Assembly: GCF_001007875.1 (NCBI RefSeq)
Contig: NZ_CP011412.1
Location: 2,852,001 to 2,916,000 of the forward strand
Direction: 5' to 3'
Source of the DNA: Sedimenticola thiotaurini
Lineage (GTDB): Bacteria > Pseudomonadota > Gammaproteobacteria > Chromatiales > Chromatiaceae
Length of the DNA stretch: 64,000 nt
Position numbers and translations under genes: made by a program. The notes beneath the pieces are model-generated. The model ran no database searches. It was not told where the DNA came from and worked only from the letters and a program-made list of their open reading frames with translations. This document shows, piece after piece, positions 6,194 to 23,013 of this stretch (position 1 is its first letter; every line of letters starts with the position of its first letter).

Positions 6194-8020
6194 ATGTGTG
6201 GCATTGTGGGTGCCGTAGCCCGGCGAAACATTACCCCCATCCTGATTGAAGGTCTGCGTCGCCTGGAGTACCGGGGCTACGACTCCGCCGGAATCGCTAT
6301 TCGGGACAGCGCCGGCAGAATCCAGCGGATTCGTTCCGTGGGCAAAGTGGCCTCTTTGCAGCAGCGTATGGAGGAGAACCCTATCGAGGGTGAACTGGGT
6401 ATCGCCCACACCCGCTGGGCCACCCACGGCATGCCGGCTGAGCGCAACGCCCATCCCCACATGAGCGGTGAGCAGGTGGCGGTGGTGCACAACGGCATTA
6501 TCGAGAACCATGCCGAACTGCGTGAAGAGCTGATTGCCAAGGGCTACCGGTTCACCTCCGACACCGACACTGAAGTGATCGCCCACCTGATGGCGGATGC
6601 GGTGAAGGACGGTAATGATCTCTGTAATGCGTTCAAATCGGTGGTCAAGCGCCTAGTAGGTGCTTACTCCCTGGCGGTCGCCAGCCCCGATGATCCGGAC
6701 CGGATCGTAGTGGCCCGGGCCGGTTCGCCGCTGGTTGTCGGCCTGGGTGACGGGGAGAACTTTGTCGCCTCCGACGTGTTCGCCCTGCTCACTGAAACCC
6801 AGCGCTTTATCTTCCTGGAAGAGGGTGATCTGGCCGACGTGCGCCGCGAAGGGGTGCAGGTGTTCGACAGCGAAGGTAACCCGGTGGAACGGCCGGTGGT
6901 CTCATCCAAGCTGAACCCCACCGCTACCGACAAGGGCCCCTACCGTCACTACATGCTGAAGGAGATTTTCGAGCAGCCGGCCGTGGTGGCCGAGACCCTG
7001 GAGGGGCGCATCCACAAGGGACGCCTGCTGGAAGAGAGCTTCGGCTACGAAACCAAATCACTGCTGGACCGCACCAAGCGTATTCAGATCATCGCCTGCG
7101 GCACCTCCTATCACGCCGGCATGGTGGCCCGCTACTGGTTTGAAGAGATCGGTATCCCCTGCAACGTGGAAGTGGCCAGCGAATACCGCTACCGAAAATC
7201 GGTGGTATCGCCGGATACCCTGTTTGTCACCATCTCCCAGTCGGGTGAGACCGCCGATACCCTGGCCGCCCTGCGCGGCAGCCGGCAGCAGGGTTATATC
7301 GGCAGCCTGGTGATCTGCAATGTGCCGGAAAGCTCCCTGGTACGGGAGTCCGATGTGGCATTGATGACCCGTGCCGGCCCCGAGATCGGGGTCGCCTCCA
7401 CCAAGGCGTTCACCACCCAGCTGGTGGCCCTGCGCTTGCTGGTGTTGGCGCTGGCCCGTCGCCAGGGTGTCGATGCCGAACAGCTCAACACCTGGGTCGA
7501 AGAGCTGCACGCCCTGCCCCGCCAGATGGAAGTGGTGCTGAAACTGAATGACCAGATCGAGGAGATGGCCCAAGGTTTCGCTGAGCGCAGCCATGCCCTG
7601 TTCCTGGGTCGTGGCCCCTTCTACCCCATCGCCCTGGAAGGCGCCCTGAAACTGAAAGAGATCTCCTACATCCACGCGGAGGCCTACCCCGCCGGAGAAC
7701 TGAAACACGGTCCGCTGGCCCTGGTGGACGCCGAGATGCCGGTGGTCTGTGCCCTGCCCGATGACCCGCTGCTGGAGAAGGTGCTCTCCAACCTGCAGGA
7801 GGTACGGGCCCGGGGCGGCGAACTGTTCCTGTTCAGTGACAAGCGGGTAAAGATCGAACTGGATAACTACCAGAGCCTGACCCTGGACGACATCTGCCCC
7901 ACCACCGCCCCCATCGTCTACACCGTGCCGCTGCAGCTGCTCTCCTACCACGTCGCCCTGCTCAAGGGTACCGATGTGGACCAGCCCAGAAACCTGGCCA
8001 AATCGGTCACGGTGGAGTAG
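6194..8020 (+). CDS. glmS: Glutamine-fructose-6-phosphate aminotransferase (isomerizing)
   Basis: It converts fructose-6-phosphate and glutamine to glucosamine-6-phosphate, the first step toward UDP-GlcNAc. The 608 residues begin MCGIVGAV, so Cys2 becomes the N-terminal nucleophile of the glutaminase domain. RRLEYRGYDSAG follows, and two SIS domains carry CGTSYHAG and SQSGETADT. The C-terminus (PRNLAKSVTVE) is the region recognised by TnsD of Tn7-like elements, and an island with Tn7-like ends begins 24 bp after the stop codon. The antisense strand here gives the well-known false reading frame with YSTVTDLARF, which is not a gene. Confidence 0.98.
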   Translation: MCGIVGAVARRNITPILIEGLRRLEYRGYDSAGIAIRDSAGRIQRIRSVGKVASLQQRMEENPIEGELGIAHTRWATHGMPAERNAHPHMSGEQVAVVHNGIIENHAELREELIAKGYRFTSDTDTEVIAHLMADAVKDGNDLCNAFKSVVKRLVGAYSLAVASPDDPDRIVVARAGSPLVVGLGDGENFVASDVFALLTETQRFIFLEEGDLADVRREGVQVFDSEGNPVERPVVSSKLNPTATDKGPYRHYMLKEIFEQPAVVAETLEGRIHKGRLLEESFGYETKSLLDRTKRIQIIACGTSYHAGMVARYWFEEIGIPCNVEVASEYRYRKSVVSPDTLFVTISQSGETADTLAALRGSRQQGYIGSLVICNVPESSLVRESDVALMTRAGPEIGVASTKAFTTQLVALRLLVLALARRQGVDAEQLNTWVEELHALPRQMEVVLKLNDQIEEMAQGFAERSHALFLGRGPFYPIALEGALKLKEISYIHAEAYPAGELKHGPLALVDAEMPVVCALPDDPLLEKVLSNLQEVRARGGELFLFSDKRVKIELDNYQSLTLDDICPTTAPIVYTVPLQLLSYHVALLKGTDVDQPRNLAKSVTVE

Positions 8021-8044
8021 CACGGGCAGCCAATGGGCAACTGT

Positions 8045-8069
8045 TGTACGGAGAAAATAAAGTATTTAC
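8045..8069 (+). repeat. Left terminal inverted repeat of the glmS-associated island
   Basis: It begins TGTACGGAGAAAATAAAG and matches the reverse complement of 19169-19193 at 19 of 25 positions (16 of the first 19). A second similar AT-rich block (CTGGAAAATAAGG) follows within 20 bp, as might be expected of multiple transposase-binding sites, though I could not define a regular array. Confidence 0.6.
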
Positions 8070-8610
8070 CTGGAAAATAAGGAACCGGTTCGCAGTTGAT
8101 CGAGAAAAAGCAGGCCATCCCTTTGTACTGGGTTTTTCGTCTAGATTTCGGCCTTCCATCCGGTGATGCGCTGCTGCGTGGTTGCAGAGGCATGAACTTC
8201 ATTGCAACAACCTGTTCTCTCGTTGAGAAGTCTCCGAACTCCGCTCAGCAAATCACACAGGTCGAAAAAAGCCTCGGAATTGTCATCAGCTACCAGGGAT
8301 GATCAATATCAATCTGGAATTTCTGGGGCCTTTTAATTCCGCCGGAATCTACGTTCACCAGCAATCTGGATCGGAGTGTCTCGCCGGGGCTGAACACAGA
8401 CTATTCCGGATGCCCTTTAAAAGTATCGACCCGAGTCCGTTTAACGAGAGTATTGGGGGATACTGACCGGCTGATGTCATTGATTGAAACTTCCGAACCT
8501 ACACCCAACAAACGACTGGAAGCATCTGGATATCGACAAGCGAGCAATAGTGGCATTACTGCGCCGGCACTGAGGAGAGTGGGTAGGCAAAAGTAATTCG
8601 AAGTCAGTTA
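8070..8610. other. Non-coding stretch between island end and IS element
   Basis: About 540 bases with no convincing gene. A 68-codon open frame at 8096-8302 on the plus strand has no ribosome site and no recognisable family. In an intact Tn7-like element this is where the transposition genes would begin, so the stretch may be decayed sequence, but no tns-like motif can be read. The last four bases (GTTA, 8607-8610) are the target duplication of the IS. Confidence 0.6.
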
Positions 8611-8649
8611 GGTAATCCCCCCATTTTTAATGACGTTCAAAAGTAGAGG

Positions 8650-9477
8650 TCATGCAGCTCGGGTTAACTTCTGAATCGGGGTTATTCCACCAAGTGCCAT
8701 ATTAGGCCGTTCGTTATTGTAGCTCCAGAGCCATTTCGTTGCTGTATCCTGGGCATGAGCAATAGATTCAAACAGGTGTTGATCCAGCCACTCATGCCTG
8801 ACTGTCCGATTGAATCGTTCCACATAAGCATTCTGTTGTGGTTTTCCTGGCTGAATGTACTGAAGCTGAATGCGCTGCTTGTTGGCCCATTCCACTAGTT
8901 TGCCACTGAGATATTCCGGGCCATTGTCGCACCGGATCGCCTTGGGCTTTCCTCGCCATTCGATAATCCGCTCGAGGCTCCGGATGACTCGCAGCGCCGG
9001 GAGTGACAAATCCACTTCAATACCCAGCCCCTCCCGGTTGTAGTCATCGATCACATTGAAGGTGCGGAAGCTACGCCCATCTCTCAATTTGTCATGCATG
9101 AAATCCATTGACCACATATCATTGATCTGGCGTGGCACGGCCAGTTCATCCGGCCTATCCCGCCTCAAGCGCCGTTTTGGCTTGATTCGCAGGTTGAGTT
9201 CCAACTCCCGGTAGACCCTGTACACACGCTTGTGATTGTAGCCATAGCCCTTCACATTGCGCAGATACAGAAAACAGAGCCCGAAGCCCCAGGTCCGGTG
9301 AGTGGTCGTCAATCTCAGCAGCCAGTCCGCTATATGGGCATTTTCACCCGAAAGCTTGACCTGGTATCGATAGCAGGTTTCACTGATACCGAACAGGCGG
9401 CAGGCCATACGGATCGAAATCTGTCGCTGTTCAACCGCTTGCCTGGCCATCTCCCTGCGGCGAGATGGCCTTACCAC
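8650..9477 (-). CDS. IS3-family transposase OrfB (DDE integrase domain)
   Basis: The catalytic part of the transposase, 275 codons from the first in-frame GTG. It holds the rve integrase core: D in [10 protein letters not shown] in IRCDNGPEY and E in [15 protein letters not shown] give the DDE triad. An N-terminal HTH_21-like segment ([15 protein letters not shown]) precedes it. It is normally made as an OrfAB fusion by -1 frameshifting from OrfA, with which it overlaps by 7 bases. The WSMDF and [13 protein letters not shown] blocks fit the IS407-type branch. Confidence 0.95.
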
Positions 9478-9737
9478 TTTTTTTCAAGCGCTTCCTGGAT
9501 GATCTCTGCCTTCAGCCGCTCTTCAGCGTACATCTTCTTCAGGCGACGGTTCTCTTCTTCCAACTCCTTCATCCGTTTCATCATGGAGACGTCCATGCCC
9601 CCGAATTTGGAGCGCCAGTTATAGAAGGTAGCGTCGCTCATTCCGTGTTTTCGGCAGAGTTCAGCAACTGGTATACCGCTCTCGGATTCCTTCAGGATGC
9701 TGATGATCTGGGACTCACTGTAGCGGGATTTCTTCAT
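9471..9737 (-). CDS. IS3-family transposase OrfA (helix-turn-helix)
   Basis: An 88-residue protein with an HTH_Tnp_1 domain ([20 protein letters not shown], then [21 protein letters not shown]) and a C-terminal leucine-zipper coiled coil ([18 protein letters not shown]). It binds the element ends and can inhibit transposition. The ATG follows the ribosome site AAGGAGAATCTAC. The KFGGM block is typical of the IS407 group. It is the first frame of the frameshifted OrfAB transposase. Confidence 0.95.
9477..9483 (-). other. Probable -1 ribosomal frameshift site, A AAA AAG
   Basis: On the minus strand the end of orfA reads GAA AAA AAG TGG TAA. The heptamer A-AAA-AAG is the standard IS3 slippery site, and slipping back one base joins orfA to orfB, giving the fused transposase. 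The site and frames are seen; frameshifting itself is inferred from the family. Confidence 0.75.
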
Positions 9738-9930
9738 GTAGATTCTCCTTCAATCTCTATATTGGAAAATTCTACTTATAAACGCCACTATTTTTCGGGG
9801 GGATTACCGTTAGACCTGAATCTGAGTGATAGGTCTTGTCAGAATTTTTCTAAATTAATCCACCTAAAGGCAGCTATCGACATGGAGCGGACTTTGGGCC
9901 TGGAAAATAAATGCGTCCCCTTTTTTTGCA

Positions 9931-10119
9931 TTGGATAATGCCTTTGTCGAATCATTTTTTCACACTATGAAGGCGGAATTCATTCATCGCAGGCTATTTG
10001 AAAATGACATCAGTGCGGTGGCGCATCTGGTTGAGTATATTGAGTTTTATAACCGAGAGCGTTTACATTCAGGAATAGGCTACCAATCACCAGAGAATTA
10101 TGAAAAGCTATTCTTGTAA
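9931..10119 (+). pseudogene. Transposase fragment, IS3-family OrfB C-terminus
   Basis: A 62-codon frame with no real start codon keeps only the end of an IS3-type DDE domain: DNAFVESFFHTMKAE holds the catalytic glutamate, and HLVEYIEFYNRERLHSGIGY is the conserved tail of IS3/IS150-like transposases. It differs from the intact IS to its left and lies in the opposite orientation, so it is a relic of another element. About 50 bp of unassigned sequence separates it from the next gene. Confidence 0.85.
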
Positions 10120-10172
10120 AAGTGTCCAAAGTGGTGCTAGTTCACACCGACGTACAGGATGCGTTCTTTTGA

Positions 10173-12227
10173 TCAAAGGACGAGATAGCGCCTCACATAT
10201 GTATCAATCAACTTATTTAGCTCTTTGTTTGCTGCGTCATGTTTTTGAGGGCTTCTCAGTTTTGAGAGATGCTTAAGTAGATATTTTTCTGACAGTTTGA
10301 TGACGATTTTTTTATCATGGTTGAAGTAAAGTTCGCGTGCCCAATCTAATTCCTTTCCCTTTTCAAGATTATTATCTTGCGCGCGAGTAATTATGAATCC
10401 TAAGCGACCATAATCGTTGGCTAGATAAGTATTCATTTGCCTATACTCATTTGCACTTAGGTCGGAATAATTTTTTATTTCAAAAACTACTTGTCGCGTC
10501 CCATAATCAGAATGAATTCTCTTCCATACTGGTGCCGATGTCATATTTGTGGCTACTATATCTCGGCGTTGTCGTGCATTCTTATTCGGATGAAGTTCTA
10601 TATTTGAAAGTACACCTGCGAAAATCAATCTCACTGCCTGTAGGCACCATTCCTCAAACGAATAACAACCTTTCTCTCCCTTTTCAATCGCTTTTAGCTC
10701 TTCTAATATTTGGCCGATTCTGGCTTGTCTTTGCTCCTCGCTTATGGAGCTGATTTCAATATCATACTCATCATAAATATCTTCCGCTTGATCTGGATCA
10801 AGCGTATTTTCACTCAAATTCAAGGCTAACCAATAGCATGGATGTATTAGTAGTCTGGAGTCGTTCAAGATTTCTTTTGCGGGATCCCTACCATCATGGC
10901 AGAAAACAAATGAGCTGGCTTTTTCATCATACACTCCGATGAAGCCGATTCCGTAAAGGCGTTGGAGGACTTGTGTGGAATTCTCAAATATGGAAAGGTC
11001 CCTTTGTATATCTATAGAGTGATCATCTTTTTGCAAGATGGGGGAAATGTTTGATCTTGCATCTTTAATTGATAACTCAGACTTCCCTGAAGAAAAGGAT
11101 GCAGTAAAAAGATTCAGGGCTGGGAAAATTGTCTCGTATTCTTTGTGCAGGTCAACTAGGCGATTCTCTGATATTGATTTTGCGGAGGAATTTATATCTT
11201 CAAGAATAATTTCTTGCCGATTTTGTCCTACTGCATGAAGAAATGCATTATTTAGGAGTACCAATATATCTCGAGGTCTATACAAGGTTAGTCGTAGAGC
11301 AATTCGAAACCCTTCCCTCCCTTTGAGCTCCCGAGCGGTATGTGCATTCCAAACGCGCGTGTTATTTTCTTGGTCAGATTTTGTGGCCACTCTTAAACGA
11401 TTGCATACTAAATTAAAAAGTCCGTAATCATCCCAGTGAAGCCTTAGAACTTGGCCCTCTATGTTTCTTGTGAAATCAGGATCGTTTATCGAGATAGACC
11501 TGTACATATTGTCGCGCAAGAAAACTAAGCTTCTGGCAACTTGGGGTGAATGTGAATTGAGGTCTATAACTGCTTGTACGAATCCATCAACTAATGCTAC
11601 CCCCATCCCGTCTGGGGAGTACCCTTCATCCAATTTGTCAATCAATAAGACAAATTTCTGTTGGCTTCTTGCAAAAACATTCGATAGTGCTTCTTCGATT
11701 TCGTCTAAATCGAGATTTATGGACAGATCGGCAATATTTTCTTCTGCGGAAAGGTCGTCACGAATTACTGCACGAAGTTTCTGTCGTAGCTTAGTTGAAA
11801 TGTTTTTTTGGTTACCTGCCCACTCTTTTATATGTGGTGCTAGTGTGGCTTTTTCGACTAATTTACTAAGCTTGTAATGACCGCTCAATCTAGTGATTAG
11901 TTCCATGTATAAAGCGTACCGCCATGCTATTTTTGCGGTTGCTTTAATTTGCATGAAATTATGATCAAAGATTTTCATTAGGCCCCTCAAACCAATTATT
12001 TGGTCTTCCTGGGGGGTCACAACTATGACAAATGTTCGGCTCTGTTTTTGCCAATATTTGCTTAGCTTGTGGACTAGTGCACTTTTACCTGTTCCTCGCC
12101 TTCCTACGACAACACATCGGTCGGTAGACTCCAAGAGTGACTTATAATCTGAGGTTTCAAGAAAAGCTTGGTCGAGCATATTAATGTCGTGCTCGGCTCT
12201 AATATCCCCTAATAAGTTGCCTTTCAT
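10173..12227 (-). CDS. P-loop ATPase (Sll1717-like) with C-terminal PD-(D/E)XK-like nuclease
   Basis: A 684-residue protein. Residues 28-49 (YKSLLESTDRCVVVGRRG, then TGKS) contain the Walker A motif GRRGTGKS, preceded by a phrase typical of Sll1717-type P-loop ATPases. KFVLLIDKLDEG (191-202) is the probable Walker B. A middle helical part includes YRPRDILVLLN. Near the C-terminus D556 (RRDIVATN) and E583-x-K585 (VVFEIKN), followed by EYRQMNTYL, match the PD-(D/E)XK nuclease core. ATPase-nuclease fusions of this type are frequent in defence islands, so anti-phage activity is a reasonable inference, but it is not shown. The gene is AT-rich compared with glmS or oxyR and alone on the minus strand of the island cargo, apart from the IS. 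Confidence 0.8.
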   Translation of the reverse strand: MKGNLLGDIRAEHDINMLDQAFLETSDYKSLLESTDRCVVVGRRGTGKSALVHKLSKYWQKQSRTFVIVVTPQEDQIIGLRGLMKIFDHNFMQIKATAKIAWRYALYMELITRLSGHYKLSKLVEKATLAPHIKEWAGNQKNISTKLRQKLRAVIRDDLSAEENIADLSINLDLDEIEEALSNVFARSQQKFVLLIDKLDEGYSPDGMGVALVDGFVQAVIDLNSHSPQVARSLVFLRDNMYRSISINDPDFTRNIEGQVLRLHWDDYGLFNLVCNRLRVATKSDQENNTRVWNAHTARELKGREGFRIALRLTLYRPRDILVLLNNAFLHAVGQNRQEIILEDINSSAKSISENRLVDLHKEYETIFPALNLFTASFSSGKSELSIKDARSNISPILQKDDHSIDIQRDLSIFENSTQVLQRLYGIGFIGVYDEKASSFVFCHDGRDPAKEILNDSRLLIHPCYWLALNLSENTLDPDQAEDIYDEYDIEISSISEEQRQARIGQILEELKAIEKGEKGCYSFEEWCLQAVRLIFAGVLSNIELHPNKNARQRRDIVATNMTSAPVWKRIHSDYGTRQVVFEIKNYSDLSANEYRQMNTYLANDYGRLGFIITRAQDNNLEKGKELDWARELYFNHDKKIVIKLSEKYLLKHLSKLRSPQKHDAANKELNKLIDTYVRRYLVL

Positions 12228-12832
12228 TTATATCTCGCTATTCCCTTCACTCGAATCAATTTAGGGCTTATATTTTTAGTGAATTACATGCTAGTCCAAC
12301 TTTAGATGGTACTTGTTGAGGATAATCTTTCTTGAATTTGGTAGCAATGCTTCTGGTGGTAGATGGCTAAGTTTCAGAAAAGATTCTACGGATGTATGGA
12401 TGGTTTGTGCCGAAACGTCATGCTGTGTCGGGTTTTAAATGACGTTTTAAATTGATGGGTTTACTTGGAAGTGTCATTAAGTAGCGGTAAATATTAAGAA
12501 TTATGCTATCAATAGGCTTTTTGGGCTAGTAAAGGGACCGATCTATTCTCTACAGACAAGACGGACATCGATATGAACGGCAGCTTCTGGATGTCAGGCG
12601 ACGAAGGTATGCTGGCGACATGGAGCTGCCGTTCATTTGTGGCTATTCATCAGGATTATCGGCTGATAAACTCATAAATATTAAGGAATGAACTTCCATG
12701 GGTGGGATGCTTTGCGCCAATATTACTCCCGAAAATAGAACTTGGATGGAACGATAAGTCCAGTATTGCAATTGATTGTGCGAGTTTGCTGGTAATCAAA
12801 TTTTAAGTTTCGAAAGGAGCATGGAGAAATAT
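12228..12832. other. Non-coding gap with one inverted repeat
   Basis: About 600 bases between the divergent ATPase-nuclease gene and the next plus-strand gene. No coding frame is credible. The only strong structure is the 13-bp inverted repeat at 12573-12636. Promoters for both flanking genes should lie here, but none is clear enough to mark. Confidence 0.6.
12573..12636. repeat. Inverted repeat with 13-bp arms, sharing 16 bp with a site at 18814
   Basis: ATGAACGGCAGCT (12573-12585) and AGCTGCCGTTCAT (12624-12636) are perfect arms around 38 bases. The left arm continues into GGCAGCTTCTGGATGT (12579-12594), which recurs exactly at 18814-18829 in the same orientation. Similar dispersed palindromic repeats with AGCTTCTGG-like cores occur between genes in gammaproteobacteria, so it may be one copy of such a family. 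The two copies bracket all the plus-strand cargo genes of the island. Confidence 0.6.
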
Positions 12833-13282
12833 ATGTCCAATGAAATCTGGGCGGCGATTATCGGGGTTGCCGGAACATTGGCCGGTGTCTGGATTGGTGC
12901 TCGGTTATCGAGTAATACAGCTAAAAATCTTATGATACAACAAGCCAAAGCAGAATTCTGTGCTGCATTCACCGAAACAATGGTGCAACTCCATGCTCCG
13001 GTTGAAGAGCCAGGAATCGGGGAAGCATTGGAAATCCTTCAAAACAACTATTCCATTCATTTGGCTGCCTATCTAAAGTTAAAGGCAACCGTTCCATCGA
13101 AGCATGTTCAGGGCATTGAGGTCGCCTGGAAGCAATACAACAAGGATGGCAATTACGAATTACAGGAAGAACAAGAAATGTATCGATTTTCACACGTTCT
13201 AAATGGGAAAAATGAAGAGGAAATGCGAATGCTAGCCAGAAAGCACGTAAACACTCTTATCAATTCAGTGAAGAAAACCTAA
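12833..13282 (+). CDS. Membrane-anchored orphan protein
   Basis: Not recognised. The chosen start (12833) follows GGAG by 6 bases; upstream ATGs are possible but poorly spaced. The 149-residue protein starts with a single membrane helix (IWAAIIGVAGTLAGVWIGA, residues 4-22) and then a soluble part with charged helices, giving an N-in or N-out anchored cytoplasmic domain. This layout, one helix plus a short helical domain, is common among small proteins of mobile islands. Its stop codon is embedded in ACCTAAC, the possible start of an attC-like site. Confidence 0.65.
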   Translation: MSNEIWAAIIGVAGTLAGVWIGARLSSNTAKNLMIQQAKAEFCAAFTETMVQLHAPVEEPGIGEALEILQNNYSIHLAAYLKLKATVPSKHVQGIEVAWKQYNKDGNYELQEEQEMYRFSHVLNGKNEEEMRMLARKHVNTLINSVKKT

Positions 13283-13356
13283 CAAGTACTCATGTCGCTG
13301 CCTTTGGGCAGCTAGGATGTGCCACCGCTGCGTGGCGGCCAGCCCCATAGCTAAGT
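13277..13356 (+). repeat. Weak attC-like site upstream of the DUF4238 gene
   Basis: ACCTAAC (13277-13283) fits the attC R'' consensus RYYYAAC and overlaps the stop codon of the previous gene, as in many cassettes. GCTAAGT (13350-13356) fits R' (GTTRRRY) except for its second base. The 80-bp spacing is in the normal range and the middle can fold (GCCAC/GTGGC). The inner L-box pairing is poor, so this site is doubtful on its own; it gains weight only from the better site at 14284. Confidence 0.3.
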
Positions 13357-13373
13357 CCATCAGGGGGGAGGAT

Positions 13374-14276
13374 TTGTCAAAGTCAGTTAAACAGCATTGG
13401 GTTCCGCAGTTCTACTTGAAAGAGTTTTCTACTCCAGAAACTAGAGATGCCAAAATGAAAAAGGTTTGGGCATTCCATAGAGAGAAAGGTGATCCACTGT
13501 TAGTTAACGTGGAAGATATAGCTGCTCAGAGGCATCTATATACTCCCGCTTGTCCGGAAGGTAAAAGAGACTGGAAAACGGATGACAAGTTGACTGACTT
13601 AGAAGAATTGATCAGTAAGGTATGGCCGACGATTGCCCATGACTACGTAAATTTGTCAGATAAACACATAAGAATGGCTGTTTCCCTTTTTGTGGCCACA
13701 CTGATTTTACGCCACCCCTGTAAAATCGCAGAAGTTAAAAAAATACATGACATGATGGTGTCGGTTTGGGAAAAAGCTCCAAAAGATTCTGAAGGTAGGC
13801 CGTACGGGTCTTATATATATGAAGGGAAAGAATACGAGCTAGACAGCTCTGAATGGCATAACTATAAGAATGCAACAGATTATGACCATCAAATATTTTT
13901 TACTTCTCTTATTGAGTCTGAAACAGGCGTAATTGCTGAACTGCTCATTAAAAAGCGATGGTCAGTTGTTATTTCTGAGGCTCCGGTATTTATTACAACC
14001 GACAATCCTGTTATAGCAGAGAACCAGGAAAGGGAAAGGTTTGGTCTTGGAACAAAAGGAACGCTTATCACGTTTCCATTAAGTCCTACGCGAATACTAT
14101 GTATGGATGACAAATTCGAGGAGCCTGCCTCTCAGTATTATCCTCTCAAAGTCAAAAATGGGGCACCTTTCAATCAAGTTCAATGGGCTAAGGCATATAG
14201 ATTTATGATAAGTCCAAGGCATCCTGTTAATGTGTTGACGGAAATAATCGAGTATTCAGAGACTTTGGAGAAATGA
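13374..14276 (+). CDS. DUF4238 domain protein
   Basis: The sequence KQHWVPQFYLKEFS near the N-terminus and TTDNPV later are the signature of DUF4238, a widespread family of unknown function often found on mobile DNA. The start is probably TTG at 13374 behind a GGGGGGAGGA ribosome site, giving 300 residues beginning SKSVKQHW; no ATG lies before the conserved block. There is no signal peptide or membrane segment. The gene starts 23 bp after one attC-like core and ends 8 bp before another, the arrangement of a one-gene integron cassette. No biochemical role can be assigned. Confidence 0.8.
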   Translation: MSKSVKQHWVPQFYLKEFSTPETRDAKMKKVWAFHREKGDPLLVNVEDIAAQRHLYTPACPEGKRDWKTDDKLTDLEELISKVWPTIAHDYVNLSDKHIRMAVSLFVATLILRHPCKIAEVKKIHDMMVSVWEKAPKDSEGRPYGSYIYEGKEYELDSSEWHNYKNATDYDHQIFFTSLIESETGVIAELLIKKRWSVVISEAPVFITTDNPVIAENQERERFGLGTKGTLITFPLSPTRILCMDDKFEEPASQYYPLKVKNGAPFNQVQWAKAYRFMISPRHPVNVLTEIIEYSETLEK

Positions 14277-14283
14277 TCGCGGA

Positions 14284-14373
14284 TAACAATTGCATCCAGC
14301 TGACTGGTGTTTCGTTTGTGGCGAATACCACAAGCCTCACGCTGCTACGATGGTCGGCTGATGCTGGGAGTTA
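14284..14373 (+). repeat. attC-like recombination site after the DUF4238 gene
   Basis: TAAC (14284-14287) and GTTA (14370-14373) are the core-like ends. Inside them GCATCCAGCTGAC (14292-14304) pairs with GTCGGCTGATGC (14353-14364), leaving one unpaired C, which resembles the extrahelical bases that give attC sites their strand choice. A central stem TTGTGG/CCACAA (14316-14321, 14328-14333) closes the hairpin. Size (90 bp) and position just after a stop codon fit an integron attC. No integrase gene is in the window. Confidence 0.45.
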
Positions 14374-14582
14374 ACTGTCTGCTTTTGGATGGGGTCTGTC
14401 GTTTGAGCTATCAGCCGCTATTGACATCATATTTTCGTTCGCGATATGTAAATAGGTATTCTGACCAGACGAATATGGACAGTTACAGTGCCACAACTGT
14501 CAATATGAATTGTAGCGCTGCCGTTGTTTGGTTTGTGGAATTAATTATTGAATAAACACAACAAAACTATTGAACAAACAGC
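14374..14582. other. Short non-coding gap
   Basis: About 210 bases with no gene or strong structure, separating the attC-like site from the next operon. Together with the attC-like site, the gene-free stretch is 306 bases. A promoter for the 14583-16085 genes is expected but not evident. Confidence 0.5.
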
Positions 14583-15071
14583 ATGGATAACACAACTCAA
14601 ATTCCCTTAACAAAAATACCTAGAAAAATAATTAAAACTGCGTTTTTATTTATCGGGAAATCCATCCTCATTCTTTTTGGCTTTCTTGAGTTTATTAGTG
14701 TTATTTGGGAAGCGTTTGAGCAGAGTATAAGCTTCCTCGAAATATCCTCTCTTGAGATGTTCTTCTTTGTTGTTTTCTTTTTTCTTGTAAGGAGGCATAT
14801 CAACGCTGCTTCAGAATACAAGATGCCGTGGATCAAAGCTCTGTATCTGCCACTTAGAAACTTAGGGTGGCTTTTCTTGTTATTCTCGGTACCTATCATT
14901 TTTATTTCGGCTCAGCAAGAGAGTGTCAACTTTATTTCCAGGTACGAAAATATTCTGCAATTTATTGAATATATTGGCGTAGCAATCTGCACCTACCTTG
15001 CAGCTCCCGTAAAAAGCAAAAATAAGGGGTTGAACAACGGTGACGATGTTCCCGCGGAGGTGAGCAAATGA
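14583..15071 (+). CDS. Small integral membrane protein, unknown
   Basis: Not recognised. The 162 residues hold about four hydrophobic segments (near 20-42, 55-70, 92-110 and 125-142), including the very hydrophobic MFFFVVFFFLV. The C-terminus is charged and probably cytoplasmic. It starts a set of three overlapping genes: its stop codon overlaps the start of the next gene in ATGA. AT-rich codon use differs from the chromosomal genes on either side of the island. Confidence 0.65.
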   Translation: MDNTTQIPLTKIPRKIIKTAFLFIGKSILILFGFLEFISVIWEAFEQSISFLEISSLEMFFFVVFFFLVRRHINAASEYKMPWIKALYLPLRNLGWLFLLFSVPIIFISAQQESVNFISRYENILQFIEYIGVAICTYLAAPVKSKNKGLNNGDDVPAEVSK

Positions 15072-15418
15072 CTACTTCCCGTATCACAATGTTGCTGACT
15101 AAGTTTACTGTTGTAACAACGCTATTATCAGCACCATTCGCTGGAGCTCAAGCAGGGTCAATTACAGCAGAAGCGCTTGCAATAAACTGCCAAGAACTCA
15201 TCGCTATATACAACAAGAAAGGTGAGCAGCGATTTATTGCTGGTATGTCTACCTCAGTTGCCGAGGCAATGAGAGCAGGCATATGTCGCGGTATGATTGA
15301 AGAGCATACCAACCACAACAGCTGTTATAGAAACTGGTATGACATAGCATCGACCATAGCAGAACTGGATGCTTACTCTAATGTGGAAAGAATGCTGGAT
15401 CATGCCTGTGCCAAATAA
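15068..15418 (+). CDS. Small secreted four-cysteine protein, possibly Rap1a/Tai immunity-like
   Basis: The 116 residues begin with a clear Sec signal peptide (TTLLSAPFAGAQA), so the mature protein of about 87 residues is periplasmic. It has four cysteines (NCQELI, ICRGMI, SCYRNW, HACAK), probably forming two disulfides. The pattern of a small helical periplasmic protein with a C-x-G-x-I turn recalls Rap1a/Tai-type immunity proteins, but the similarity is weak. It overlaps its neighbours on both sides, so the three genes are made together. Confidence 0.65.
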   Translation: MTTSRITMLLTKFTVVTTLLSAPFAGAQAGSITAEALAINCQELIAIYNKKGEQRFIAGMSTSVAEAMRAGICRGMIEEHTNHNSCYRNWYDIASTIAELDAYSNVERMLDHACAK

Positions 15419-16085
15419 TGAAAATCGCATGTCTATTCCGGAGGTAATTAGCCTGCTTTTCGGGATTAAACTGTCCAGACATAAAAAGATAAAGGACTGT
15501 CTGGATAATTTTACCCGAGAGAAGAGCGGTTTCATTCCTGTACATCGCGATACAGTGGTCCATAAAGACAATATAACTATCAGCCATGACCAACATACGA
15601 CTCTTTTTAACGCCGTTGTATTACAGGGACTGTTCAGTGAAACGCGCACTGTTCGCAGGCTATTGACCGAGAACAACCACGATTTCCGCAAACAAATGGC
15701 GGAGTTGGCAGAAATCATACTGATAGGCCGTAATACGCTATTAGGTATAAGCCTACTACCCACTGAAACCCTGGAATTTATCGAGGTGCTTGGTAGTGAT
15801 GTTGATCTCACTCAAGTACGCCTCAAGAACCCTTTTGAGACGCTTCCACAGATCGTGTTAGAGAGTGGAATGAACACCATTCAAGCCTTTCTGGCACAAA
15901 CCGCCGCATTGTCGGCTTCGGACAGCATGATGGCCCACTATTTGGCCGGTGATATCGAAATGGCGTGGAAAGCAGCACAACAGGTCTCTTCAGGCAATGA
16001 GACCGTCAATAAATATAAGTCACTGATTAAAAAAGAATATGAAGAAGCATCAGAGTTTGACGAACTGTTAGCTTCACTAGAGTAA
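15402..16085 (+). CDS. Orphan cytoplasmic protein
   Basis: Not recognised. The most likely start is ATG 15402 (MPVPNNENRM), inside the end of the preceding gene; ATG 15429 (MSIPEV) is an alternative, and neither has a strong ribosome site. The protein is about 227 residues, mainly helical, without signal peptide or membrane segment, and ends in an acidic tail. Its overlap with the secreted protein suggests translational coupling. It could be a cytoplasmic partner of the membrane and periplasmic proteins upstream, but nothing in the sequence proves this. Confidence 0.6.
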   Translation: MPVPNNENRMSIPEVISLLFGIKLSRHKKIKDCLDNFTREKSGFIPVHRDTVVHKDNITISHDQHTTLFNAVVLQGLFSETRTVRRLLTENNHDFRKQMAELAEIILIGRNTLLGISLLPTETLEFIEVLGSDVDLTQVRLKNPFETLPQIVLESGMNTIQAFLAQTAALSASDSMMAHYLAGDIEMAWKAAQQVSSGNETVNKYKSLIKKEYEEASEFDELLASLE

Positions 16086-16096
16086 AAACATGTTGT

Positions 16097-16111
16097 TTGC
16101 GTAATACGCAA
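16097..16111. promoter_or_regulatory. Palindromic operator-like site TTGCGTAATACGCAA
   Basis: A perfect 7-1-7 palindrome 38 bp upstream of the small basic protein at 16150. TTGCGTA-like dyads are typical operators of self-regulated toxin-antitoxin operons, and no coding frame covers it. No antitoxin-like repressor is encoded next door, so the binding protein is unknown. Confidence 0.5.
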
Positions 16112-16149
16112 CCCGAAACTGGCCCTGTACCTAAACAAAGGAGCCAGTT

Positions 16150-16416
16150 ATGCAAACACTACAAGACATTCTCAATACCTGCTCTGCGCAGGTTCCATTC
16201 TGTTACTTACAAAAAGCCCTTGAGCTAGATAAAAAGCTATCTGAGGGAACGCCCTACACCGAACTAGGCGGGAAGCGTATCCGCCATAACCCTAACCTCA
16301 TCCGTTTCAAAATAGGTCGTAGATTCCGGCTGCTCTACTTTCGCGCAATGGGAGTGATGGTGCCGTATTGTCTGATCACGCGTCAACAGTTACAAAAAAT
16401 CCTTATGCGAAGGTGA
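16150..16416 (+). CDS. Small basic protein, possibly ParE/RelE-like
   Basis: An 88-residue protein with a good ribosome site (AAAGGAGCCAGTT before ATG). Its C-terminal half (GGKRIRHNPNLIRFKIGRRF, then RLLYF and LITRQQLQKILMRR) is basic and has the strand-rich R-F-K-I-G-R-x-x-R-L-L-Y pattern seen in ParE/RelE-fold proteins, but the match is loose and no antitoxin gene is adjacent. The palindrome 38 bp upstream suggests tight regulation. It could also be a small phage-derived nucleic-acid-binding protein. Confidence 0.6.
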   Translation: MQTLQDILNTCSAQVPFCYLQKALELDKKLSEGTPYTELGGKRIRHNPNLIRFKIGRRFRLLYFRAMGVMVPYCLITRQQLQKILMRR

Positions 16417-16463
16417 TGTCATCGATAACTTTTTGTTTATTCGATATTTTTAAGGAAATTAAT

Positions 16464-16958
16464 ATGAGTAAGAAAACTGTTGACACAAGCATTTCAATAG
16501 TTGCAGCGAATGTGGAGCTGGATGACACCTCAGGCTTACCTGTTGTGGTACAGGCGCTGGATTTCGAACGCCTTAAACACAAGTTCACAGCCACAAGTGA
16601 TGCAGAGATGACTCCAGAGGAATGGTATAGCACCGAACATGAATACCGCCGTTTTCTTGCCCTGAAGCTCTTCTATCCGGGTATATCACTGATACCCAGC
16701 AATGACGTAGACAAGCTCTGGCATTTTCATATCCTTGATACTCGCGCTTACCGTGAGGATTGCGAGAAGGTATTTGGCCGATTTATAGATCACTACCCCT
16801 ACTTCGGTATCTATGGGAAGGAGGACTACCGTGAACAACAAATCCGCTTTGCCTTGACCGTCGAATTATATGAGCGCCACTTTGGCCCTTACCCAAAGGC
16901 AAGTACTGCGTTGGCAAACCGCTGGCAGGACGATGCATGCCAGGAGGTTGCACCATGA
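16464..16958 (+). CDS. GRDP-like (glycine-rich domain-containing protein-like) protein
   Basis: The 164-residue protein contains DKLWHFHILDTRAYREDCEK followed by VFGRFIDHYPYFG, the conserved W-H-x-H-I-L-x-T and H-x-P blocks of the GRDP-like family (PF07173). The histidines suggest a metal or cofactor site, but the biochemical function is unknown. The start follows AAGGAAATTAAT. Its stop codon overlaps the start of the radical SAM gene (ATGA), so it is coupled to it and is probably its partner or substrate rather than an independent gene. No signal peptide is seen. Confidence 0.7.
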   Translation: MSKKTVDTSISIVAANVELDDTSGLPVVVQALDFERLKHKFTATSDAEMTPEEWYSTEHEYRRFLALKLFYPGISLIPSNDVDKLWHFHILDTRAYREDCEKVFGRFIDHYPYFGIYGKEDYREQQIRFALTVELYERHFGPYPKASTALANRWQDDACQEVAP

Positions 16959-18184
16959 AGTCGGTCATTCTTGTTTCTATGGAGTATCCACGTCCACAGG
17001 ACGGCAAGTACGGTCTGGGAATCAGCTCAATCGCCGCAGCTCTCGAAGATGCTGGAGTATCTTGGCGGATCATCGATGCCCAGATCAACAGCCCCGATTT
17101 CTCCCTGGCTAACGTGCGTGACGAACTGTTTCAGGCCATTGAGGAGGTAGGCGAAGGTTGTCTGGTCGGCTTCAGTACTTACGTATGGAACGATCTGGAG
17201 GTTTGTAACTTGATCCGTCAATTAAGAGGTGCGGGCGTAGAGATCGTGCTGGGGGGGCCACAGATCTCCAATACGCCTAAAGGTCAGCTGGAGGATTTGT
17301 ATCCGGATGCAGACTATTTCGTCCGTGGCCATGGAGAGATGGCTATGGTGGGCCTCGCTAGTGAAATACTGCCCGATAACAGTGGGATCCACGTCGCTGG
17401 TGAACCCGATCTGGGTGTTAAGGTGGAACTTGAGCTGCTGGACTTGCCCTCACCCTATCTGCTTGGGACGGCCGAAATTCGCGAAAGCATTCGGTGGGAG
17501 ACCCAACGTGGCTGTCCATACGAGTGTTCCTTTTGCCAGCACAGGGAGCTAGGTAAGTGGCAAAAGGACCGGTGCTTCTTCGGTGAGCAACGCCTTGAGC
17601 GGGAGCTGGCACTGTTTGCTACCGCAGGTGTGAAACGAATTTCTGTTCTTGATCCGGTCTTTCATGTCGACCAAACACGAACTATCCGCATACTGAACAG
17701 CATCAAGACTGCTGGTGTGGGTGCCCAGATTTCATTGCAGTGCCGCTTTGAGGCGTGTACTCCCCAGTTTCTGGATGCGCTCGAAGGTCTTAACGTGACC
17801 CTGGAGTTCGGTTTGCAGACGATCATAGAGGGCGAATATCGTTCTATCGGTCGCCCAAACAGCATGAAGAAAGTTAGCAGCGTTATCCGAGAGTTACATG
17901 AGCGACAGATCGATTTCGAGGTATCTCTGATCTATGGCTTGCCAAAACAGACATTGAAAAGCTTTCTGGAGAGCGTTGACTGGTGCAAGCAACAGAAAAT
18001 CCCGCGGATACGTGCATGGCCATTGATGCTGCTGCGCGGCACGCCCCTCTACGAGCAGAAAGAGCGCTATGGGTTCAAGGAGAGTTCAGATCAGCCTATT
18101 CCCATCGTGGTTTCCAGCAACACCTTTTCCGAAGAAGATCATGTCGAGATGGCCCGCATTGCACGTGAGTTGGAGGAGAATTGA
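16955..18184 (+). CDS. B12-binding-type radical SAM protein
   Basis: 409 residues starting behind AGGAGG. Residues 1-145 look like the cobalamin-binding fold found in class B radical SAM enzymes (GLGISSIAAALEDAG, VLGGPQIS, and GHGEMA near 125-130), but the D-x-H-x-x-G cobalt-ligand motif is not evident, so B12 may be bound base-off or not at all. C187, C191 and C194 (RGCPYECSFC) bind the 4Fe-4S cluster that splits S-adenosylmethionine. IYGLPKQT is the usual later radical SAM block. It is coupled to a GRDP-like gene upstream and a nucleotide kinase downstream. The substrate is unknown. Confidence 0.9.
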   Translation: MKSVILVSMEYPRPQDGKYGLGISSIAAALEDAGVSWRIIDAQINSPDFSLANVRDELFQAIEEVGEGCLVGFSTYVWNDLEVCNLIRQLRGAGVEIVLGGPQISNTPKGQLEDLYPDADYFVRGHGEMAMVGLASEILPDNSGIHVAGEPDLGVKVELELLDLPSPYLLGTAEIRESIRWETQRGCPYECSFCQHRELGKWQKDRCFFGEQRLERELALFATAGVKRISVLDPVFHVDQTRTIRILNSIKTAGVGAQISLQCRFEACTPQFLDALEGLNVTLEFGLQTIIEGEYRSIGRPNSMKKVSSVIRELHERQIDFEVSLIYGLPKQTLKSFLESVDWCKQQKIPRIRAWPLMLLRGTPLYEQKERYGFKESSDQPIPIVVSSNTFSEEDHVEMARIARELEEN

Positions 18185-18185
18185 G

Positions 18186-18770
18186 ATGGGATACTTTATT
18201 GCTGTAGAAGGGTTGGATGGCATTGGTAAATCCACACTGGTCGAGCAACTGGCAAGAGAGTTTTCCGGCCTTGCCATGAGTACACCGGGCGAAGCGCTAC
18301 ACGATAGTCGCAGGGTGATCATGAATGATTTTTCGGACGATGAGCTGGCTAAGGCATTGTTTTATGCGGCCAGTGTTTCCAGCCAGGGCAGGAAGGCACG
18401 CAAAAAGGTAGAGAGTGGCAAATGGGTCTTCATGGATCGCTATTGGGCCTCGACGATAGCGTATGCGAAGGCTCGTGGTGTCACAGCCGAATTAGATCAA
18501 CTCAGCAAGAGCTTGATTCAGCCAGATTTGAGCGTATTGCTGATACTCAACGAGTCGGAACGACAAAGGCGCCTTCATGCCCGTGGTACCACAGTGGAGG
18601 ATATAGATACACTGGATCCAGGCTTTCGCCAGTGCGTGCTCGAAGAACTCCAGACGCATGCCAACCTGGTGGTCAATATAAGTGGCTACGATCTGCTGGC
18701 TGCAACTCAGATGCTTGAAAAGGTTATTCGCAAAAAGGTTAAAAGTACCAAGAGTTTTGGCCGTGCCTAG
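18186..18770 (+). CDS. Thymidylate-kinase-like P-loop kinase
   Basis: The 194-residue protein has VEGLDGIGKST (Walker A, residues 8-18), DRYWASTIAYAKARG (the nucleotide-binding D-R-Y block), VLLILNESERQRRLHARG (Lid arginines) and the general length of dTMP kinase. TMP kinases phosphorylate dTMP to dTDP; this copy lies on an island, so it is unlikely to be the essential chromosomal enzyme and may act on another nucleotide. It starts 1 bp after the radical SAM gene behind GGAGGAG, so the two are cotranscribed. A nucleotide kinase beside a radical SAM enzyme recalls prokaryotic viperin loci, but the radical SAM protein here is of a different class. Confidence 0.85.
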   Translation: MGYFIAVEGLDGIGKSTLVEQLAREFSGLAMSTPGEALHDSRRVIMNDFSDDELAKALFYAASVSSQGRKARKKVESGKWVFMDRYWASTIAYAKARGVTAELDQLSKSLIQPDLSVLLILNESERQRRLHARGTTVEDIDTLDPGFRQCVLEELQTHANLVVNISGYDLLAATQMLEKVIRKKVKSTKSFGRA

Positions 18771-19168
18771 CCCTAGGGATGTACTTTTTTTGGTACTAAA
18801 TATGGCGGTAAATGGCAGCTTCTGGATGTTTTCAGCCTGTGAAGTCGTTTAACCGGAAGTCTTCTTTTGGCTGTCAGATGTCTGTTCATCGGCATCCTAC
18901 TTTTTCATAGCAGCAAGGAAGGTATCTGGGTGGAAATTATTTGCTATAGGGCTCGATTTCCCTACCGAAAAGTGGTAATCCGGTAATGTGTATCTGGGCA
19001 TATGCCGTGCGGCCAAATATTTTGTAAAAATAATTAGATAGAGATTTGGTACGATCTTTATTATTTGATATTACGGTTTAATATGAGCTTTGCTCTGCTG
19101 AAGGTAGAGACTTTACCGGGATATGGTTATTGAGATGGCAGTAAATCAATAATTTAGAGAGGACTTAA
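18771..19168. other. Non-coding right part of the island
   Basis: About 400 AT-rich bases with no credible gene between the kinase gene and the right terminal repeat. It contains the second 16-bp repeat at 18814 and GTACTTTTTTTGGTAC just before it, a short hairpin with a T-rich loop that might weakly terminate the kinase operon. Confidence 0.55.
18814..18829 (+). repeat. Second copy of GGCAGCTTCTGGATGT
   Basis: Identical over 16 bp to 12579-12594, in the same orientation. Unlike the first copy it has no perfect opposite arm, only a degenerate GGCTGTCAGATGTCTGTTCAT further on. The pair brackets the plus-strand cargo genes. Confidence 0.6.
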
Positions 19169-19193
19169 GTAGCAACATTATTTCCTTCGTACA
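19169..19193 (-). repeat. Right terminal inverted repeat of the glmS-associated island
   Basis: Read inward on the minus strand it begins TGTACGAAGGAAATAATG, matching the left end at 19 of 25 positions. ACTGA follows at 19194-19198, against ACTGT before the left end. Alternatively the shared flank may be AACTG (8039-8043, 19193-19197), which shifts the exact boundary by one or two bases. Confidence 0.6.
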
Positions 19194-19223
19194 ACTGACC
19201 TTGCCAACCCGGCACAAGGTTGA

Positions 19224-20117
19224 TCATAACTGCTTCAGTTGATCCCGGAACAGCTGCATCAAAAGCTCGATATTCTTAAGCCCGGGGTAGTTGGGCCTCA
19301 CCACAAAGGCGATTTCACGGTGCGGGCCAGGTTCAGCCAAGGGTACCTTGGCGATTCTGGGATTGCTCTCCACCAGTTGCGGTAGTGCCATTTCCGGCAC
19401 CAGGGTGGTACCCAGGCCGTTCGCCACCAACTGGACTAGGGTGTTGAGACTGGTGGCGCTGAGGTGGTCTGCCGAGACTTCCTGGAGGTGGCAAACCGCC
19501 AGTGCGTGATCCTTCAGGCAGTGTCCCTCCTTGAGCAGCATCAGCCGCTGCGGATCCAGCTCGTCTTTGCTCAGCTGCTGTTTGCGGGCCAGATCATCGT
19601 CAACATGGGTGATCCAATAGAAGTTTTCCGCCCAGAATGTGAAGGTCAGCAGGCCATCGCATCTGAATGGCAGGGCGAGGATGGCGGCATCCAGATCGCC
19701 ATGGCGTACCTGTTCCACCAGCACATGGGATTGTTCTTCGGAAATATGCAGCTGTAGCCGGGGATAACGGGCCTGCAGGGTCGGCAGTACCACCGGCAGC
19801 AGATAGGGACAGATGGTGGGGATGATCCCCAGTGACATGGTGGTATTGAGTGGTTCCTGTTGTGCTTCGCCCAGTTTCTCAATGTCATCCATCAGGAACT
19901 TGATCTGCTGTGCCTTCTCCAGCACCTGTTTTCCAAGTGGCGTGACCAGGACCTGCTTGTTGTTGCGTTCGAATATCTGAAAACCCAACTGCTTTTCCAT
20001 CTCAGAAAGCGCAGTGCTGAGCGCTGACTGGGAAACGGCGCAGGCCTCGGCTGCCTTTTTAAAATGCAGTGTGCGTTCAACCGCCAGGGCGTAGTGGATC
20101 TGTTTCAGGGAGATCAT
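19224..20117 (-). CDS. oxyR: OxyR, peroxide-sensing LysR-family regulator
   Basis: A 297-residue LysR-type activator of peroxide defence genes. The N-terminal winged helix (ACAVSQSALSTALSEMEKQL) binds DNA; the C-terminal domain senses peroxide. GHCLKDHALAVC shows two cysteines spaced C-x8-C near residues 199-208, the redox pair that forms the activating disulfide in E. coli OxyR. It is divergent from ahpC-ahpF, its classical target, with 168 bp between. Its 3' end lies 30 bp from the right end of the glmS island. Confidence 0.95.
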   Translation of the reverse strand: MISLKQIHYALAVERTLHFKKAAEACAVSQSALSTALSEMEKQLGFQIFERNNKQVLVTPLGKQVLEKAQQIKFLMDDIEKLGEAQQEPLNTTMSLGIIPTICPYLLPVVLPTLQARYPRLQLHISEEQSHVLVEQVRHGDLDAAILALPFRCDGLLTFTFWAENFYWITHVDDDLARKQQLSKDELDPQRLMLLKEGHCLKDHALAVCHLQEVSADHLSATSLNTLVQLVANGLGTTLVPEMALPQLVESNPRIAKVPLAEPGPHREIAFVVRPNYPGLKNIELLMQLFRDQLKQL

Positions 20118-20155
20118 GGGTTCAGTCTACTCCGGCCCAATCCATTATTCAATTT

Positions 20156-20185
20156 ATTAGAACATTATTATCAATACAATCTAAT
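20156..20185. promoter_or_regulatory. Probable OxyR-controlled promoter region of ahpC
   Basis: An AT-rich dyad, ATTAG (20156-20160) and CTAAT (20181-20185), lies in the divergent oxyR-ahpC gap, followed by TATCAT (20192-20197) as a possible -10 for ahpC. OxyR is known to bind long AT-rich dyads at such places. The match to the four-part OxyR consensus is only partial. Confidence 0.4.
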
Positions 20186-20285
20186 TTACGGTATCATGCC
20201 CTATCCGTACAGTATTGCCATCTGCTCTTAACGACGCAGGATTAAATTTTATAACCCGATGACTTCATTCCGTAGGAGATTAGAG

Positions 20286-20855
20286 ATGTCTGTAATTAAC
20301 ACCAAGATCAAGCCGTTTACCGCCACCGCATTCAAAGCCGGTGAGAAAGACTTCTTCCAGGTCACTGAAAAAGACCTTGAGGGTAAATGGGCTGTGTTCT
20401 TCTTCTACCCGGCCGACTTTACTTTCGTCTGCCCGACCGAGCTGGGCGATCTGGCCGATCACTACGAAGAGTTCCAAAAGCGTGACGTGGAGATCTACGC
20501 AGTATCCACCGATACCCACTTCACCCACAAGGCGTGGCACGAGGCTTCCGAGACCATTGGCAAGATCAAGTACCCCATGCTGGGCGACCAGATGGGCATC
20601 ATCACCCGCAATTTTGAGAACATGCGGGAAGATCAGGGTCTGGCTGATCGCGGTACTTTCCTGGTCGACCCGGATGGCATCATCCAGGCCGTGGAGATCA
20701 CCGCCGAGGGTATCGGTCGTGATGCCGAGAACCTGCTGAACAAGGTCAAGGCCGCCCAATATGTGCGCAACCACCCGGGTGAAGTCTGCCCGGCGGCCTG
20801 GAAAGAGGGTGAGGCCACCCTGGCGCCTTCCCTGGACCTGGTCGGCAAGATCTAA
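20286..20855 (+). CDS. ahpC: Alkyl hydroperoxide reductase subunit C (2-Cys peroxiredoxin)
   Basis: It reduces hydrogen peroxide, organic hydroperoxides and peroxynitrite in the cytoplasm. The 189 residues start behind [21 protein letters not shown] holds the peroxidatic cysteine (about residue 47) and [10 protein letters not shown] the resolving cysteine (about 166); the length and [11 protein letters not shown] start match E. coli AhpC. It is followed by ahpF, its dedicated reductase, after 66 bp that contain a stable hairpin. OxyR control is expected from the divergent regulator. Confidence 0.98.
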
Positions 20856-20867
20856 ATCATCGCATTA

Positions 20868-20896
20868 CCGGGTGCCCTGCTGGTCAGGGCGCCCGG
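20868..20896 (+). other. Stem-loop between ahpC and ahpF
   Basis: CCGGGTGCCCTG (20868-20879) and CAGGGCGCCCGG (20885-20896) form a 12-bp stem with one G-T pair and a 5-base loop. There is no T run. It probably protects the ahpC message or partly stops transcription so that the abundant peroxiredoxin outnumbers its reductase. Confidence 0.65.
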
Positions 20897-20921
20897 CCCA
20901 AAAAGAATACGGAGCTGTATC

Positions 20922-22499: not shown

Positions 22500-22536
22500 G
22501 TTGGTTCCAGGAGACGAATCGTCACGCAGATAAGCG

Positions 22537-22568: not shown

Positions 22569-22622
22569 TCCTCTCTCCATTCACCAGCGGAAGAACCGGG
22601 GGCACGATCCGGTTTGACTCAT

Positions 22623-22984: not shown

Positions 22985-23013
22985 GCCCGGCAAATCAACC
23001 GCAGGGTGGGCGT

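Follow-up and report, generated by a model that had tools for sequence, protein, structure and literature searches.

The glmS locus of Sedimenticola thiotaurini raises the question of how an island bounded by Tn7-type ends, in which no transposition genes are found, came to occupy the attachment site of Tn7 (attTn7). The locus was analysed within a stretch of 64,000 nucleotides of the contig NZ_CP011412.1 (the window), in which the region 8045–19193 is very probably a tns-less Tn7-like element, placed at attTn7 in the orientation of Tn7 by a machinery formed by TnsABC and a TnsD-type protein. The sequence TGTACGGAGAAAATAAAG begins at position 8045, 24 bp beyond the glmS stop codon, which ends at 8020, and an inverted relative of it extends to 19193, so that the element comprises 11,149 bp. 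The pentamers immediately outside, ACTGT and ACTGA, are identical at four of five positions. These coordinates and letters had been given in a preliminary description of the locus and were found correct when the sequence was read again; the 5-bp duplication expected there is present as a pair of flanking pentamers, but only as a near-duplication. The lower G+C content also noted there was recovered, with 0.447 within the element versus 0.572 across the remainder of the window.

Judging from its sequence, the glmS-proximal end is of the R type, as in Tn7, because its first 28 bases are identical at 20 positions to Tn7R of E. coli (NZ_CP033762.1) and because it carries a TnsB-type site at the Tn7 offset. 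On neither strand does any other place in the window match as well (the runner-up reaches 18), and none of 20,000 shuffles equalled it (maximum 19/28); the shuffles were mononucleotide for this comparison and for the end pairs of relatives described below, and dinucleotide for the match between the two ends of the window's own element. The TnsB-type site, in the Tn7 register (offset 8), exceeds the 99% level of the shuffles (12.1 versus 9.3); with a model built from relatives only, the values are 9.5 and 9.2. A possible second, weaker repeat follows it, which is not above the null with either the Tn7 model or the relatives' model. The claim of Tn7-type ends at attTn7 is therefore sustained by the distance from glmS and by the likeness of the left end to Tn7R.

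The glmS-distal end, of the L type, matches the left end at 19 of 25 positions; the runner-up reaches 16 on the minus strand of 8101–34000 and 17 in the whole window. It had been anticipated that shuffling might show this match to be not unusual: two of 300 shuffles equal 19/25, and in none is a match of at least 17 accompanied by a 4/5 flank. Taken alone, the inverted match is suggestive (about 0.7% of shuffles); with the flank the case is stronger, and firmer support comes from the likeness of the left end to Tn7R and from the combination of TGT, a TnsB-like site and an IHF site in the right end. Besides the terminal TGT, this end contains a consensus site for IHF that starts at +37 from the terminus, whereas in the L ends of four relatives discussed below (G149, G014, G212 and G213) the IHF consensus WATCARNNNNTTR starts at +38. 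The TnsB-type sites of the right end score 2.0 at +10, in register, and 4.9 at +75, both under the 95% shuffle level of 5.6. Of the TnsB-site repeats of 20–22 bp that had been expected at both ends, the left end has one strong site and possibly a weaker second one, while the right end offers a weak in-register site and a candidate at +75. A scan for ends composed of TGT, a TnsB-like site and an IHF site at 28–50 gave a single match in the whole window, at 19193. Applied to 22 sequences (405 kb, both strands), it gave four matches, all inverted and the window's included, with a rate in shuffles of 0.012 per 100 kb per strand. Relatives' loci totalling 1.19 Mb, in which overlapping loci are counted twice, yielded five distinct ends, again including that of the window.

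The absence of recognizable transposition genes, also claimed in the preliminary description, agrees with the searches of the S. thiotaurini genome for TnsA, TnsB and TnsD, all of them negative, in which no autonomous Tn7 core (tnsB/tnsC, tnsA and a TnsD/TniQ selector) was recovered; TnsC was compared with the window only. The TnsA family (E ≤ 1e-3) matches in 14 of 210 genomes of the order, seven of which exceed the family cut-off, and in none of eight congeners; of five TnsA loci inspected, those of G199 and G106 lie beside TnsB-like and comM-like genes and the other three look unrelated to Tn7. A TnsB profile built from six sequences (E ≤ 1e-6) matches in 6 of 210 genomes of the family, and TnsD of Tn7 in 6 of 369 genomes of the class. 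A TniQ search and a search with TnsB of Tn7 in 12 genomes matched nowhere and were uninformative; the TnsB profile replaced the latter. When the Tns proteins of six elements were compared with the window, the best match (E 0.039) fell on the integrase of an IS3 element, and no tns remnant was seen. Since no transposition genes were found, the element should not move by itself.

The search of the whole genome for Tn7-like ends that had been recommended found the end motif, with at most one mismatch, at the two termini only. With up to three mismatches there are 10 matches, versus 4 in a control read backwards, and all but the two termini have at least two mismatches. Among 210 genomes of the order, the motif with at most one mismatch occurs beyond the window's ends only once, in G072, inside an open reading frame (ORF). 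In IMG/VR it is present in 36 contigs, and in no case is it accompanied by a glmS end, by a tns match or by IHF at the right distance; the left end gave two partial matches to plasmids (E 0.6), and two of six fetched TnsB-positive regions hold isolated single site matches.

By analogy with Tn7, in which TnsD reads the 3' end of glmS (as stated in a passage of PMC11406308), TnsD and TnsC would have chosen the insertion site. TnsAB would then bind and join the ends, with R proximal to glmS, giving a 5-bp duplication of which four positions would remain, and IHF would bend the L end. After insertion, the element would have stayed fixed. An element that has no target selector might, according to a passage of PMC10293859, borrow one in trans.

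The glmS regions of other bacteria were inspected for similar ends. GlmS was matched in 53 of 55 relatives; 80 glmS regions were fetched, among the matches listed (195 of 210 genomes had one). In total, 110 regions downstream of glmS were scored against Tn7R at offsets 15–35 with a threshold of 15/28, and 18 reached it, including E. coli Tn7, the tns-bearing G545 and the window. When the window, and the first two, which had been chosen for their Tn7-type genes, are set aside, a Tn7R-like end is present in 15 of 107 regions, versus 2.0% of 2201 control windows. The 107 regions come mostly from the same family, with a few from other families of the class, and the 15 all belong to it; sister species (G158/G159) are among them, so that they represent fewer than 15 events. 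Past glmS, a tns match was found in G545 alone among the 18 loci, three of which offer only 268, 492 and 978 bp. Longer stretches (12.7–26 kb) were read in 12 relatives (11 of the 15, and G545) and in the window; the 11 loci, over 12.7–20 kb, hold no tns match, nor does that of the window. Away from glmS, a TnsB match exists in 2 of the 15 genomes, beside a comM-like gene in G199 and in G158, where it is a fragment with an internal stop (L257, G158:C1:62312-62707); the glmS of G158 also has a Tn7R-like end.

Some of these relatives carry small elements in which cargo lies between well-matched ends. At glmS, that of G149 (3.6 kb) has ends identical at 24 of 25 positions and that of G014 (5.0 kb) at 23 of 25, both equalled in 0 of 300 shuffles; their R ends lie 16 and 20 bp from glmS, respectively, and neither has a 5-bp duplication. 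In G213, glmS lies on a different contig from the element, which measures 2.55 kb (L248:8092-10642). Its R end holds three sites and its L end an IHF consensus at +38; its single gene encodes a methyltransferase (Pfam 1e-15), no tns match was seen in it, and the 4-bp sequence CAGT is repeated flush with either terminus. This genome also has an R-like end at glmS and no TnsB match. G212 has ends of this type too, as an inner pair. The blastn blocks shared among the four elements measure 24–89 bp and nearly all are terminal, except for one of 57 bp that is internal in G014; for G149, G014 and G213 the same ends were observed on different cargo. Another R-like end lies directly beyond the L end of G014, and in L183 and L047 second R-like ends (TGTTCnnGACAATnAAAGTCGAAAAC) were seen by eye close to the first, in the 140 bp that follow glmS and also beyond the L end; these second ends are probably stacked Tn7-like insertions at glmS. 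Two other pairs were discarded: position 17161 of G212, when paired with the R end at the glmS of that genome (16/25, equalled by 100 of 300 shuffles, and an L end that has its inner partner), and a pair in G030 (19/25, 0 of 300 shuffles) that is without an IHF site and was excluded from the core set.

The flank of glmS is variable across the genus. In only four of eight congeners (G002, G003, G007 and G008) is it long enough for comparison by blastn; in G003, whose GlmS is 96% identical, the first downstream window sequence matched starts at 26,318, and in the other three at about 33.7–34.2 kb. No match to the oxyR-ahpC-ahpF and arsenic-type genes, up to about 26.3 kb, was found in the fetched congener flanks, and the window's OxyR is at most 45% identical to any protein of the eight congeners. 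This corrects the preliminary description, in that the DNA not shared with congeners runs on past 19193. It is compatible with a boundary there, as a Tn7-like element can land beside DNA acquired earlier. The stretch 19224–26200, before the first DNA shared with G003, contains oxyR-ahpC-ahpF, a phosphatase/arsR fusion, a GAPDH gene and an MFS gene; the last three would form an arsenic-type cluster, a function suggested by their domains.

Several observations weigh against the assignment of 8045–19193 to a Tn7-like element placed at attTn7. The duplication is imperfect, both TnsB-type sites of the right end are weak, and a model of the Tn7 TnsB sites finds nothing beyond the null in that end. 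The scan for IHF and TnsB sites is strong but partly post hoc, because the IHF spacing and the score threshold were set after the resemblance to the relatives' ends had been seen. No second copy of the ends was found in the S. thiotaurini genome, the element has no blastn block in common with the other four, and none of the congener flanks examined holds a glmS-oxyR junction, hence there is no empty site for comparison. The tns queries, taken from six elements, are distant and could miss a divergent set. Relatives of the candidate defence pair PDC-M51AB (66–67%) are present in two Pseudomonas loci not bounded by window-type ends, one of which (L084) has a loose match to the end motif, inside an ORF; because these copies are without such ends, the pair also travels by other routes. 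One could then suppose that the island was built by recombination or by the activity of insertion sequences, and that its termini, at least the right one, are coincidental. The fact that the 19/25 match alone arises in 2 of 300 shuffles, the weakness of the right-end sites and the unshared DNA past 19193 would all fit; nevertheless, this explanation is very improbable, given that the attTn7 spacing, the 20/28 match to Tn7R, the 4/5 flank and the position of the IHF site coincide.

How the Tn7-like element came to be without tns genes can be explained by decay or by movement in trans. It may have arrived with tnsABCD and lost them by deletion, in which case its ends would be fossils, and what is left would be an ordinary island of defence genes and cargo, fixed in place. 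Just inside the R end, where Tn7 keeps its tns genes, the window has approximately 550 bp without a notable ORF, followed by an IS3 element and an IS3 remnant; the elements of G149 and G213 have stronger sites; and by the scan 8 of the 11 tns-less glmS flanks with an R end (12.7–20 kb read) are without an L-type end. Yet no tns fragment is left, the intact IS3 element has a clean GTTA duplication and therefore itself deleted nothing, and relatives hold cargo-only elements with near-perfect ends, so that the chances of this explanation are evenly balanced. Alternatively, cargo with Tn7-type ends was excised and inserted by the TnsABCD proteins of another element. The common end letters and differing interiors of the G149, G014, G213 and G212 elements (in the last, the inner pair) argue for this possibility, as do the different spacings from glmS in G149 and G014, and the coexistence in G213 of an R-like end at glmS with a complete copy on another contig and no TnsB match. 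Against it, no tns-bearing helper with matching ends was found in the six fetched TnsB-positive regions, in plasmids or in IMG/VR, which also weighs against the assignment itself; moreover, G149 and G014 are without a 5-bp duplication, G213 has only the flush CAGT, and nothing shows that the window's copy belongs to the same end type. Movement in trans is, as a general explanation, possible but rather doubtful. As regards the copy in the window, we lean slightly towards a loss of tns after insertion, and insertion of an already tns-less element by a helper is nearly as credible.

The interior of the element is mostly composed of orphan and defence-like genes, as the preliminary description held on the basis of the sequence and as domain and PADLOC matches now indicate (Table 1). 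The match to PDC-M51AB is strong, and the remaining defence matches are weak or correspond to candidate families; putative anti-phage roles are suggested for PDC-M51AB, the Sll1717-family ATPase, the DUF4238 protein and the ParE-like protein. The ATPase was matched in 433 plasmid records, and at least 80% of it was covered in 198. The GRDP-like ORF overlaps that of the ParE-like protein, and a later start is likely. In both Pseudomonas loci (L083 and L084), PDC-M51AB is preceded by a gene of 731–750 amino acids that does not adjoin the window's copy, and L084 also carries an IS3 element 70% identical to that of the window. A small repeat element, the inverted repeat GAACGGCAGCTTC...GAGCTGCCGTTC, is located at 12575–12637 (fold z -3.66 for 12555–12660); its arm GGCAGCTTCTGGATGT recurs at 18810–18830. 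An attC-like stretch after the DUF4238 gene (14278–14381) was unsupported (fold z -1.15), and Rfam gave nothing at E ≤ 1 on 7900–20400.

Table 1. Coordinates (positions in the window) of glmS, the termini and flanks of the element, and its cargo.
Feature	Position	Strand	Basis or remark
glmS	6194..8020	+	ORF; TnsD is known to target its 3' end (attTn7)
Left flank ACTGT (putative target duplication of 5 bp)	8040..8044		4/5 versus ACTGA
Terminus next to glmS (R type), containing a TnsB-type site (offset 8)	8045..8072	+	20/28 to Tn7R
Possible second, weaker TnsB-type repeat	8065..8086	+	Sequence; 20 bp from the first
IS3-family insertion sequence	8611..9808	-	orfA 9471-9737, orfB 8650-9477; inverted ends GGTAATCCCCCC; GTTA on both sides; NCBIfam transpos_IS3 5e-63, HTH_Tnp_1 1e-25
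Remnant (61 amino acids) of another IS3-type transposase	9934..10119	+	Pfam rve_2 4e-13, rve_3 1e-12
P-loop ATPase, Sll1717 family, 684 amino acids	10173..12227	-	NF047389 1e-80
Orphan, 168 amino acids	12776..13282	+	No Pfam match at E ≤ 0.1; one NCBIfam match far under cut-off
DUF4238 protein	13317..14276	+	PF14022 4e-28; PADLOC DUF4238-Pers 1.5e-5
Orphan, 162 amino acids, membrane-like by eye	14583..15071	+	No Pfam match at E ≤ 0.01; one NCBIfam match far under cut-off
Two overlapping orphan ORFs, 116 and 238 amino acids	15068..16085	+	Weak matches only, under cut-off
ParE-like toxin-domain protein	16150..16416	+	PF24732 5e-12
GRDP-like protein, 196 amino acids (longest ORF)	16368..16958	+	PF07173 2e-4, 22.2 bits versus cut-off 22.7
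B12-binding/radical SAM protein, phage-defence candidate PDC-M51A	16955..18184	+	PDLC04689 2e-178
Thymidylate-kinase-like protein, phage-defence candidate PDC-M51B	18186..18770	+	PDLC04690 8e-76
Candidate second TnsB-type site (L2) CGGTAAAGTCTCTACC	19103..19118	-	Score 4.9 versus 95% null 5.6
IHF consensus in the L-type end	19144..19156		+37 from terminus; 16 of 5000 shuffles hold one at 30-45
L-type glmS-distal terminus TGTACGAAGGAAATAATGTTGCTAC	19169..19193	-	19/25 to left end; sole such end in the window
Right flank ACTGA	19194..19198		Read from sequence

A broader interpretation, which we advance tentatively and regard as rather doubtful, is that in this bacterial family Tn7-like transposition occurs largely through cargo-only elements. 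These would have short ends (an array of R sites on one side, and L1-IHF-L2 on the other) and interchangeable genes, from one methyltransferase to 11 kb of defence-like cargo, and would be delivered to attTn7 or elsewhere by proteins supplied in trans by transient elements; the island in the window would be one such cassette. Tn7R-like ends occur at 15 of 107 glmS regions, versus a TnsB relative in 6 of 210 genomes of the family, with G199 and G158 in both sets. Transposition genes tend to be the starting point when Tn7-like elements are surveyed, an approach that would miss tns-less elements; a passage of PMC8649781, for example, describes boundaries delineated on contigs that already hold a Tn7-like transposon. 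In the full-text literature searched, outside which most subscription papers lie, no account of such a cargo-only family was found. If it is true that cargo-only elements move in trans, the part of Tn7 in the spread of defence genes has been underestimated, and the end signature (TGT, a TnsB site at +8 to +10, IHF at +37/38) allows a search that does not depend on the transposase.

The element of S. thiotaurini resembles Tn7 of E. coli (L085/L102) in its place and orientation at glmS (24 bp, versus 25 bp in Tn7), in the R terminus, in the register of the TnsB-type site and in the TGT...ACA ends. It differs in that Tn7 carries tnsABCDE, in the terminal letters (TGTACG versus TGTGGG in Tn7), and in the IHF consensus of its L end, which is not found in the first 160 bp of Tn7L or Tn7R. 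The glmS-linked element of G545 (L096) is similar in that its R end lies 22 bp past glmS and is identical to Tn7R at 17 of 28 positions; in contrast, it has tnsABC, two TniQ/TnsD-type genes and AAAGTTTGTAATT-type sites. As described in a passage of PMC10201428, type I-F CRISPR-associated transposons, such as VchCAST, have in their left end an IHF site that separates the first TnsB site from the second, and the L end studied here is alike in its IHF consensus; VchCAST, however, has an RNA-guided target instead of glmS, and no tns genes were found here, where cas genes were not searched for. A parallel in organization is offered by the elements of G149, G014, G213 and G212 (inner pair), which have an R end resembling that of Tn7 (located at glmS in the first two), an IHF site in the L end (at +38) and no tns match; they differ from the element of the window in their end letters (TGTTGnGCGGGAATAAAGTCCGTCA), their stronger sites and their cargo.

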